A stretch of DNA of 64,000 bases, taken from an uncultured Fretibacterium sp. (GTDB lineage Bacteria > Synergistota > Synergistia > Synergistales > Aminobacteriaceae). The stretch lies in the NCBI GenBank assembly GCA_946183145.1, contig CAMGZM010000008.1, positions 62,001 through 126,000 of the forward strand, written 5' to 3'. Shown piece by piece: positions 6,242-9,253 of this stretch. The notes beneath the pieces were generated by a model that worked only from the letters and a program-made list of their open reading frames with translations, was not told where the DNA came from and did no database searches. Position numbers and translations under genes: made by a program. How positions within the stretch are numbered: the first letter of the stretch is position 1; each line of letters opens with the position of its first letter.

Positions 6242-6778
6242 TCAGAATTTCCCTGTCATGAAATATTTGTCCCACGAAAAAACGCCCAGTCTTGTCCGCA
6301 GAAATATAATGCTTGCGCCGAGATAGTACGGTATAAGGCGTTCATTTCCTTTTTCACGCGCAAATATTCCGTATTCCTCAAGAAGAGAGCAAAGACTCCT
6401 GCCTCTTGCCCTCGATTTGAAAAGAAGCTCGGCATAAAGAGCAGATCCCTCTGTGAAGAATGCGCCCGCCTCATGAATGCCGCGCTCAATCTGAAAGCAG
6501 TGCATAATTTCGTGAACTATTCCGCAGAAAACATCAACGCTGTCCCATTCAGGCGAGTTTTTTCTCATGTCCCATAATGCCCAAAGTTTTCCGCCTATTT
6601 TGTACGGCGCGTTATCCATGACGGGAAGTATTTGCCTGATGATTTTTCCATCGGCCATGAAGCAGTCCGGGAAGAGAATAATATAACCGCATGGCCTGAA
6701 GCCCGGTATAATGCTCCAGTCAGCCGAATCTATAAGCTCTGAAACTTCTTCTCCAGTACAGCGTCGAATCGTTCCCAT
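6242..6778 (-). CDS. Putative MA-type zinc metallopeptidase in the Hxs operon
   Basis: A 178-residue protein with no signal peptide, so probably cytoplasmic. At about residues 88-114 it reads VHEIMHCFQIERG then AFFTEGSALYAELL. This is HExxH with a second Glu about 18 residues on, the gluzincin pattern of peptidase MA-like domains (HELxHxxQ ... EGxAxY). The fold call is mine from motif spacing, not from a family match. It is the last gene of the operon and its ATG lies 49 nt inside the methyltransferase gene, so translation is probably coupled. A cytoplasmic protease at the end of a peptide-maturation operon could be the leader peptidase; that role is inference. No good ribosome-binding site precedes the start. 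Confidence 0.6.
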   Translation of the reverse strand: MGTIRRCTGEEVSELIDSADWSIIPGFRPCGYIILFPDCFMADGKIIRQILPVMDNAPYKIGGKLWALWDMRKNSPEWDSVDVFCGIVHEIMHCFQIERGIHEAGAFFTEGSALYAELLFKSRARGRSLCSLLEEYGIFAREKGNERLIPYYLGASIIFLRTRLGVFSWDKYFMTGKF

Positions 6779-7383
6779 CTGAATGAAGGAGTGAGAAAAT
6801 GTGATGTGAAGCCTTCAGCCCTGAAAGTGTTTCGTCTGTGCCAGAAGCTGAAGCTGTCAATGAAATCACAGCGCGGAAGAAGATATTTCGCATTCTTCAT
6901 TACTATCGCATTGTTTATTCTGAAAAGAAATCTGCGGCGCGAGTCAGGGATTCCGAAATGGTATATTTTTCCCCCTTCTGAAAGAGATTTACTGAGGCTG
7001 ATATTCATCTTCATAATCTGCGGGGCTGTGAGATACTGCGCCATGTTTACGGAATATATTACGTCAAATTCTCCGCTCAGGCCGTCAGGAAGGCTTTCAG
7101 CGTCCGAGAGAAAAAGCTCCGCGCCCGGTATTCTCTTTCCTGCGTCTTCAAGAAATTTACCGGAAAAATCAGAAAGCACAACCCTGCTCGGCGTGAAATG
7201 CCTCAGAAGTTCCGCGTCAATTCTTCCGTCACCGCAGCCAACCGACAGAATACGCTTGCCGTCAAGATCAACCCCCGCGCCGATAATGTGAAGAGACATT
7301 CCGGCAATATCAGCCTCCGAAACTTTCAGCACAGAGGGACAATCAGACAGGCCTAAATATTCCCGCGCTAACATCCGCCCCAC
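6730..7383 (-). CDS. Class I SAM-dependent methyltransferase in the Hxs operon
   Basis: 217 residues, Rossmann-like methyltransferase. Motif I is RILSVGCGDGRID (about 44-56), followed by VVLSDFSGKFLEDAG (SAM ribose loop), an acidic motif around LFLSDAESLP and the FDVIYSVNMAQYL strand. The N-terminus (about 1-40) and the C-terminal third are not recognisable and may bind the substrate. It overlaps hxsB by 16 nt and the metallopeptidase gene by 49 nt, so the three are translated from one message. Its target may be the modified peptide or a small molecule; nothing in the sequence decides this. Start could also be the second ATG at 7374. Confidence 0.8.
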   Translation of the reverse strand: MGRMLAREYLGLSDCPSVLKVSEADIAGMSLHIIGAGVDLDGKRILSVGCGDGRIDAELLRHFTPSRVVLSDFSGKFLEDAGKRIPGAELFLSDAESLPDGLSGEFDVIYSVNMAQYLTAPQIMKMNISLSKSLSEGGKIYHFGIPDSRRRFLFRINNAIVMKNAKYLLPRCDFIDSFSFWHRRNTFRAEGFTSHFLTPSFRWERFDAVLEKKFQSL

Positions 7384-8760
7384 CGTGAAAGAAGCCCGCG
7401 CTCCTCATCGCTGCCGGAAAGAAGCCTGTCCACAATATACATGTATATTCCCCTGAGAATCCTGCACCTTTCCTGCGTTACAGGGACTCCGGCATAATCG
7501 CCCTGAGTGCGGAAGCTGTAGACCGGGCATAGTCCGCATATCGGGCTGAAAACACAATGCGAGCATGACGGATTTGACTCTATGCATGAGGCATTGCAAA
7601 CGTTACAGGCAGCATCAGAAAGAACAACGGACTTGTACGAATCATCAAAGACATTTCCGGCGCAGAAATTTTTGATTCCCGCATTCGCCATCATTCTTCC
7701 TTCATCGCATGTGTATATTTTCCCGTCCCAGTTGTACGCAAGCTGACCCGTAACAGCCCCGCAAGGAGAACGCAAATCAGTATAGTTGACGGTGTAACGC
7801 CCGCATATTTTCTGCAGCAGCATCTCGGAAAATGATTCTTTGAGCGAAGATGACCCCGAAAGATTCAGCGAGATAATATAATCCATGCACTTGGCGTAAA
7901 AATCTGTGAACTCTTCAGGCGAATAACCAATGTTCTCACGGTTAACGCCCGCCTTCCCGAACGGCGACAAAGGACGGAGAGAAATATACTCGTTCCCAAG
8001 CCCCGAATAGAAATCAACAAGCTCTCGCGAATAAGGCAGAGTATTGCGCGTTATTGTGGGAAGTGCCGTTATCTTTTTCCTGCGAACGCCGTAAACTTTC
8101 AAGGCACGTTCACGCCACCGCAAAACATTCGCAAAATTAGACTCACCATTTTTTGACGGCCTGTTTCTGTCGTGTATATATTCCGGCCCGTCAAGCGAGA
8201 AGCATATATTAACGTCATGATCCGAGAGCCAGCCGAGTATTTCATCTGTCATTGCCTGAGCGTTAGTAACAAGGGAGTAACGTATATTCCTGCCGTCCCT
8301 GCGTGATGATGAATATTCGACAATGAATTTCAGAGTCCCGAAATTGAGCAGAGGTTCTCCGCCCTGAAACTCAAACGATAAATTTTCCTCCGGCGACTGA
8401 AGCGCAATGTCAACATCCCTCGAAGCCGTCTCACGAGTCATCTTTGTGGAGCCTCCGCCGCTGTATTCGGCCTCACAGTAAAGGCAGCTGAGATTGCATT
8501 CCAGAGTCAGAACAAAAATATGCAGGAATGCCGCTCCGAAAAGCCCGGCATTTATGCGCCTGTAATATTCGGCTGAACGTTCCGCGCTGTCAATGGATGA
8601 ACATGTTTTCCCTGAGAATGTCCGCAATCCCGGCAGGAACATTCCCAGCGCAAAAATCCTCAACCTGCTCCGGCGTAAAGTACATGAACTTCCTGAACAT
8701 GTTGGAGACAAGATATTTGTTGCGTGATATTTTCTCGAAATAGAAAGGTGATATTTTCAT
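7368..8760 (-). CDS. hxsB: HxsB-like radical SAM/SPASM peptide maturase, frameshifted near the 5' end
   Basis: Radical SAM enzyme of the His-Xaa-Ser system type. The body reads HIFVLTLECNLSCLYCEA, giving CxxxCxxC for the [4Fe-4S] cluster, then FEFQGGEPLLNF (SAM-binding GGE). A C-terminal SPASM region of many Cys follows (SPCGAVTG, YTCDEG, CNVCNASC, CSHCVFSPICGLCP), for auxiliary clusters. The true N-terminus starts at the ATG ending at 8760 (MKISPFYFEKISRNKYLVSN). It runs 56 codons to a TGA at 8590-8592, in a different frame from the body. Dropping one A from the run at 8606-8609 joins the two halves into a 463-residue protein without gaps. Either a mutation, a sequencing slip, or less likely recoding. 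Confidence 0.78.
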
Positions 8761-8770
8761 GGCATACAAA

Positions 8771-8799
8771 AAGCCGCCCCCGTTAAAGCAGGACGGCTC
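8771..8799 (-). terminator. Intra-operon terminator between hxsD and hxsB
   Basis: On the minus strand AGCCGTCC (8798-8791) pairs with GGGCGGCT (8779-8772), with one G-U pair, around a loop TGCTTTAACGG, followed at once by TTTTTG. It lies in the 47-nt gap between hxsD and hxsB, so it would favour transcription of the precursor and hxsD over the enzymes. Confidence 0.75.
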
Positions 8800-8807
8800 C
8801 CCATAAA

Positions 8808-9080
8808 TTATTTGCAGTCCCTGGCAATTCCGTAAAGCGCGCGGCCTATGATCATTTCCTTCACAGCCCGTGTTCGCACGGCAGCGGTTATGCGTCTTAT
8901 GTAGTCGTTAAGCTCTTCTGTGAATCTCTTCCGGCACTCCTCATCAGGCAAAACAATTTCGGCCTCATCACTGCAATAACTGACAGAAGCATTTATCCCA
9001 AGCTGACCCTCGCAGTAATCACGCGCGAGAATGACAGCCTCAGCAGGAACACACGAAAGATTCACACGAAAGGACAACAT
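8808..9080 (-). CDS. hxsD: HxsD-like His-Xaa-Ser system protein
   Basis: 90 residues. The HxsD family is named for a LLNDYxLRE-like motif; here the matching stretch is EELNDYIRRITAAVRT (about 56-71), followed by the hydrophobic helix VKEMIIGRALYGIA. The N-terminal half (MLSFRVNLSCVPAEAVILA) matches the beta-strand plus helix layout of the family. HxsD has no established activity; its constant linkage to the radical SAM maturases suggests it is a peptide carrier or partner like PqqD, which is inference. It starts 8 nt after the precursor stop and is separated from hxsB by a terminator. Assignment rests on the motif, size and the neighbouring HxsB. Confidence 0.72.
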   Translation of the reverse strand: MLSFRVNLSCVPAEAVILARDYCEGQLGINASVSYCSDEAEIVLPDEECRKRFTEELNDYIRRITAAVRTRAVKEMIIGRALYGIARDCK

Positions 9081-9088
9081 TCCGGCTG

Positions 9089-9253
9089 CTAGTCGTCCTG
9101 AACTAAGCTCGATGAGTGTGCGCTGTGCGAGCCGTGGGACATCTCGTATTTCTCAGCTTCCGCAAAAAGTTCACGGCTGAATGTGAATACCTCTGAATCG
9201 CCCTTTACCGTTTCCGAAATTCCTCTTACCTGCTCAAGCCCGATTGACTTCAT
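9089..9253 (-). CDS. Putative Hxs-type RiPP precursor peptide, 54 residues
   Basis: Small gene with an excellent AAGGAGG site about 10 nt before its ATG. The peptide begins MKSIGLEQVRGISETVKG, has a charged helical stretch (ELFAEAEKYEM) and ends SHGSHSAHSSS then LVQDD. The triplets HGS, HSA, HSS at residues 40-48 are the His-Xaa-Ser pattern for which the system is named. I read residues 1-38 as leader and 39-54 as core. HxsA substrates described for this system are longer proteins with C-terminal His-Xaa-Ser repeats, so this is an unusually short version. It is first in the operon, 8 nt before hxsD. No signal peptide is visible. Confidence 0.7.
   Translation of the reverse strand: MKSIGLEQVRGISETVKGDSEVFTFSRELFAEAEKYEMSHGSHSAHSSSLVQDD

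Follow-up and report, generated by a model that had tools for sequence, protein, structure and literature searches.

A candidate RiPP operon with HxsB and HxsD homologues and no HxsC, inserted in one species among the congeners compared

Can a His-Xaa-Ser (Hxs) pathway operate on a short, soluble peptide without HxsC? The question is raised by a minus-strand gene cluster in the window, as we call the whole 64-kb stretch of DNA analysed here. The His-Xaa-Ser system HxsA-HxsB-HxsC-HxsD is credited to Haft and Basu in PMC9062424. Its components are represented by the models TIGR03979 (HxsA), TIGR03978 (HxsB), TIGR03977 (HxsC), and TIGR03976 (HxsD), and variants are already recognized in NCBIfam as the HxsA4 and HxsC4 'exception' models. 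We found no report of a characterized product of any Hxs system in the open-licence literature searched, which is not proof that none exists. The initial annotation of the cluster described an Hxs-type operon without HxsC; this reading stands with respect to the HxsB and HxsD homology and the missing HxsC, and requires amendment in that hxsB is split and the metallopeptidase is recognized by motif only.

Gene content and genomic position of the operon

According to ORF calls across the 64-kb window, the minus-strand block from 9253 to 6242 comprises five closely packed genes that form a real operon. The operon and its surroundings contain the following features, with the evidence in brackets.

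3152–6202, plus strand: RND pump, conserved neighbour on one side of the operon
6242–6778, minus strand: HExxH protein, 178 aa, HEIMH-x16-E-G (motif)
6730–7383, minus strand: class I SAM methyltransferase, 217 aa (PF13649)
7368–8603, minus strand: hxsB catalytic part, radical SAM (CNLSCLYC) plus SPASM, +1 frame (TIGR03978)
8590–8769, minus strand: hxsB N-terminal part, 59 aa, frame A, ending in TGA (HxsB N-terminus profile matches, codon usage)
8770–8800, minus strand: terminator-like hairpin between hxsD and hxsB (RNA fold, pattern scan)
8808–9080, minus strand: HxsD-like protein, 90 aa (TIGR03976, own profile, AlphaFold2)
9089–9253, minus strand: putative precursor, 54 aa (strong SD, native codon usage, rare His period-3 tail)
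9539–9567, minus strand: promoter-like site TTGACA-17-TACAAT (consensus match, 11/12)
9683–10882, minus strand: binding-protein-like gene, conserved neighbour on the other side

The hxsD start lies 8 nt past the precursor stop, the methyltransferase gene has a GTG start and overlaps the hxsB stop, and the HExxH and methyltransferase genes overlap by 49 nt. The G+C content is 0.48 in the operon and 0.47 in the window, and an Rfam search yielded no match. The hairpin between hxsD and hxsB (−22 kcal/mol, z −3.2) has a UUUUU run, and its 3′ arm contains GGGGGCGG, the likely hxsB ribosome site; such a hairpin might allow more precursor and HxsD to be made than enzymes. The promoter-like TTGACA-17-TACAAT, located ~290 nt before the precursor, agrees with the consensus at 11 of 12 positions and is a weak candidate because 9 such sites were found in 4 kb vs 5.3 expected.

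The slot between the two flanking genes is collinear and operon-free in six congeners; therefore, the operon is a block insertion confined to one species among the congeners compared. In the closest congener, G041, inspection of the sequence revealed a short ankyrin-repeat-like gene in the slot (L101 11856–12658), given which the slot appears to be a variable insertion site. The RND pump was considered as the exporter of the operon and rejected because it is a conserved neighbour in the operon-free congeners as well. A defence-system reading was also rejected: the PADLOC hits (viperin, mads_2) appear to reflect generic similarity among radical SAM proteins and among methyltransferases. Elsewhere in the window, an 84-aa ORF (12225–12479, minus strand) is a nearly letter-for-letter copy of a PriA-like C-terminal part (MRREFMLPPYGYMIEVETSGKK...) and adjoins the PriA-like gene (12569–14320, minus strand), representing a tandem partial duplication of the 3′ end of that gene.

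Searches with the window HxsB, HxsD, and HExxH protein found no relatives of the operon in the genus, family, and phylum (188 genomes), only canonical HxsBs with 37–39% identity; thus, this is not a clade-wide system. HxsB was detected above the cut-off in 7 of the 188 phylum genomes, four of which are congeners with HxsC-bearing loci. These congener loci are canonical HxsA3-HxsD-A24 peptidase-HxsC-HxsB loci, and both of the two that were tested are HxsA3-type by model. A single-sequence query against a collection of genome contigs identified only one true HxsB locus. In the HxsB tree, the window protein forms a lone deep branch, with an unsupported sister placement with G217, and its identity to any other HxsB is at most 43%. 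Neither the HxsD-like nor the HExxH protein matched plasmids, and the precursor matched no phage record. With no second occurrence, the precursor frame and the gene association lack the backing of conservation.

Components of the operon

The catalytic part of HxsB, with the N-terminus excluded, matches TIGR03978 at 396.2 bits (cut-off 370), with the next-best SPASM model at 124.6 bits, which bears out the annotation of a radical SAM/SPASM gene of HxsB type. Alignment with the HxsBs of congeners and of one Moraniibacteriota genome shows that the radical SAM and SPASM cysteines and GGEP are present. The gene spans 8769 to 7368 (minus strand) in two reading frames, a break overlooked in the initial annotation. 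The first 59 residues (LYAMKISPFYFEK...ILRENMFIH; 8590–8769) are encoded in a frame closed by TGA (8590), and the remainder (DSAERSAEYYRR...LHIFVLTLECNLSCLYC; 7368–8603) is read in the +1 frame with respect to this first piece. The N-terminal piece matches positions 2–41 of TIGR03978 with 12.8 bits and our own HxsB profile with 14.4 bits; when the frames are joined, the score of the own profile rises from 435 to 456 bits with the alignment unbroken over the join, and codon usage changes frame at about 8590–8670. Stop read-through, with UGA as a residue, was rejected because the frame past the TGA is not HxsB-like. Homology and codon usage thus support a frame switch, so that hxsB in this strain may be mutated, mis-sequenced, or recoded; accordingly, the pathway may be non-functional in this strain, or the sequence may be in error.

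Of the two family models proposed for checking the operon, TIGR03978 gave a score over its cut-off, as described above; TIGR03976 matched the HxsD-like protein significantly (29.5 bits, E 7e-7) yet below its cut-off of 50. This cut-off is missed too by a canonical congener HxsD in G006 (43.4) and by the G217 HxsD (32.6). The annotated HxsD-like gene with LNDY is otherwise upheld: ELNDY is present, and our own profile, built from 19 other HxsDs with the window protein left out, finds it as the sole HxsD in the window (E 4e-7). Judged by these comparisons, the HxsD homology does not depend on the name. The gene is located directly upstream of hxsB, the same order as in many canonical loci. The AlphaFold2 model (pLDDT 93) predicts a small beta-alpha-beta-beta-alpha fold, for which a search of the PDB retrieved nothing informative: the matches were all small alpha/beta arrangements of a common kind, with a best Z of 7.2.

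The tiny gene with a strong ribosome-binding site was correctly annotated: it has 54 codons (9089–9253, minus strand) and carries AAGGAGGA 10 nt ahead of its ATG, and GGAGG occurs within 20 nt upstream of only 11 of the 378 window ORFs of at least 40 aa. Its codon usage fits the genome in its own frame only, with 0.35 bits per codon; the two alternative frames score −0.75 and −0.42. The encoded peptide, MKSIGLEQVRGISETVKGDSEVFTFSRELFAEAEKYEMSHGSHSAHSSSLVQDD, is composed of MKSIGLEQVRGISETVKGDSEVFTFSRELFAEAEKYEMS-HGS-HSA-HSS-SLVQDD; it thus does not end in HSS, as annotated, but in HGSHSAHSSSLVQDD, and although the three-His pattern of the described tail is present, only two of the three units, HGS and HSS, are true His-Xaa-Ser. 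The window contains the triple-His period-3 pattern a single time, vs 0.075 expected per simulated window (six frames), and this instance lies in the gene directly upstream of hxsD. The peptide contains no hydrophobic segment and no prepilin-type leader, and no NCBIfam family, including TIGR03979, NF038296, NF038309, and NF038313, matched it at E up to 10. Across the whole genome, HxSHxSH gave 13 DNA pattern matches, none in an ORF of at least 30 aa; therefore, no canonical substrate is seen elsewhere in the genome.

HxsC, annotated as absent, is indeed missing from the operon, and the best match in the genome reaches 59 bits vs a cut-off of 267.9. An HxsC or HxsC4-like gene lies near hxsB in all 24 other HxsB loci examined, which come from congeners, from further genera of the order, from other phyla, from viral contigs, and from one fecal contig. 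No further HxsC-less HxsB locus was found in 391 Clostridia-class genomes, in 388 genomes from a second phylum, to which the Kiritimatiellae genome G189 belongs, in the viral contigs, or in the fecal contig. With respect to HxsA4 and HxsC4 (NF038313, NF038332), the precursor and the HExxH protein had no NCBIfam match of any kind, and neither model was listed for the other proteins.

Of the two final genes, annotated as a methyltransferase and an MA-type metallopeptidase, the former is confirmed by PF13649 (48.2 bits, cut-off 27). The latter is identified by its motif, HEIMH...FFTEGSALYAE; the protein matched no Pfam or NCBIfam family (E up to 10), gave no meaningful PDB sequence match, and its single-sequence AlphaFold2 model (pLDDT 44) is unusable. 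Based on the motif, it is possibly a gluzincin-like peptidase.

A proposed pathway and its alternatives

We favor, with a probability of roughly 55%, the reading of the cluster as a RiPP operon gained by horizontal transfer, whose HxsB and HxsD oxidize a His/Ser tail that is then methylated, with removal of the leader or trimming of the peptide. This reading infers that the peptide serves as the substrate, and likewise infers the chemistry, the sequence of events, and what the last two genes do, as follows. After horizontal gain of the operon, the HxsB-type radical SAM/SPASM enzyme, aided by its HxsD-type partner, would oxidize the tail HGSHSAHSS of the cytosolic precursor, most likely forming carbon-carbon, carbon-oxygen, or carbon-nitrogen links at the His-Xaa-Ser units. 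Thioethers are excluded by the sequence because the tail contains no Cys; the links formed by related SPASM enzymes are of the carbon-carbon or ether type. His-containing cyclophanes have reportedly been described as well (Sugiyama 2022, a reference listed in PMC10885120). The methyltransferase would next methylate the oxidized tail; the HExxH protein would probably remove the leader or trim the peptide. Action of HxsB and HxsD on HGS and HSS, followed by methylation and leader removal, would be the most economical reading, and the tight gene spacing and overlaps are consistent with it. Against it stand the frame break in hxsB, the single occurrence of the operon, the HxsD score under the cut-off, a precursor with no HxsA match and few true HxS units, and an HExxH protein without a detectable family.

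More tentatively, these four proteins may constitute a functional HxsC-independent pathway whose product is a small His/Ser peptide, soluble and methylated; the presence of an extra methyltransferase suggests that the end product diffuses and is not an exported repeat protein. Such a pathway, if real, would be the first case in which the role of HxsB can be told apart from that of HxsC, and a 54-residue soluble substrate in a setting without HxsC would allow the HxsB reaction to be read alone. This value hinges on hxsB being intact in nature.

Two alternatives concern the frame break. That the operon is decaying or dead, with hxsB frameshifted, hxsC lost, the substrate shrunken, and no product made, is a rather unlikely but substantial alternative: by inspection, the junction CAUUGAC of the two-frame hxsB contains neither an RF2-like SD nor a slippery run, the precursor is shorter and poorer in HxS units than most of the other substrates found, and the window HxsB branches alone and deeply. 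Yet ~400 codons past the break are intact, with conserved catalytic residues and genome-like codon usage, the remaining four genes are intact as well, and an identical picture would result from an error of one base in the sequence or assembly; moreover, loss of HxsC together with gain of two genes is a coherent architecture, not debris. It is distinctly improbable that hxsB is made as two polypeptides, the 59-residue piece and a product of internal ATG restart, or by programmed +1 frameshifting. Homology and codon usage mark both pieces as coding, and an ATG of the second frame lies upstream of the break, but hxsB is a single continuous gene in the other HxsB loci found, no recoding signal is recognizable, and the restart site has no clear SD.

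Two further alternatives concern the roles of individual genes. We consider it improbable that the HExxH protein is an alpha-ketoglutarate-dependent HEXXH hydroxylase acting on peptide His or Asp, and not a peptidase. The EGxAxY context past its HExxH, which we take to be of the peptidase type (MA-clan motifs), is a point against this, as is the failure of any NCBIfam model to match it at E up to 10, although NCBIfam may not include that hydroxylase family. Conversely, HEXXH enzymes of RiPP clusters, once called metallopeptidases, can be alpha-ketoglutarate-dependent hydroxylases of His and Asp, both of which are present in the precursor tail; ChlH hydroxylates His and Asp, and PflC/PosC hydroxylate Gln (PMC12636437). 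It is very doubtful that HxsB modifies another protein in place of the short peptide: no sequence relative of the precursor was found, but its rare His tail is encoded directly before hxsD, in a gene with an SD and fitting codon usage, and none of the 13 HxSHxSH matches in the genome is carried by an ORF of at least 30 aa. Overall, the acquired RiPP operon with a modified His/Ser tail remains our preferred reading.

Comparison with known Hxs systems

Hxs operons were also observed on a Leptospira phage record (KF114877.1, 80105–81295) and on several IMG/VR contigs (L066–L076), which raises the possibility that mobile elements carry Hxs. A 7.6-kb fecal record labelled 'Bacteriophage sp.' (MT837156.1, our L065) carries a whole HxsA3-like operon beside a FabZ-like gene and is therefore probably bacterial DNA mislabelled as phage.

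The HxsBs nearest to that of the window (36–43%) belong to HxsA3-type loci (NF038309; L057–L060, L065, L084, L085), found in four congeners and in gut Clostridia. Unlike the window operon, these loci contain HxsC, a prepilin-like leader followed by long HxS repeats, and an A24 prepilin-peptidase-like protein (shown in L057 and L065); the one in G006 adjoins TerD/AIM24/CoaBC, not the place of the window operon. The A24 prepilin-peptidase-like protein is encoded in L057–L060 and L065, with PF01478 scoring just under the cut-off in L057 and L065, and the HxsA3 substrates start prepilin-like (IPKGQLLAVGSLMVVL); together, these features suggest pilin-like processing of the modified repeat protein.

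A Clostridia-side Hxs variant in the genome G217 (L086, 435–13255) encodes two NHLP-leader precursors with the tails HSND and HRSYSTHGS. It resembles the window operon in its cytosolic leader, few His/Ser units, and low-scoring HxsB (389 bits) and HxsD (33 bits), and differs in having an HxsC4-like second radical SAM protein (NF038332), two NHLP precursors, and M16-like and M50-type peptidases in place of the 178-aa HExxH protein.

Like canonical Hxs loci, the window operon has an HxsB over the cut-off, an HxsD homologue, and a neighbouring small protein with a His/Ser tail. Unlike them, it contains no HxsC, methyltransferase and HExxH genes are added, and hxsB is split. The canonical substrates that we found are 84–261 aa long as called and have export or prepilin-type leaders, most with six to 14 HxS units, whereas the window precursor has 54 residues, no export leader, and two HxS units. 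On the basis of these comparisons, we classify the operon as a new HxsC-less variant and not as a member of the defined Hxs system.
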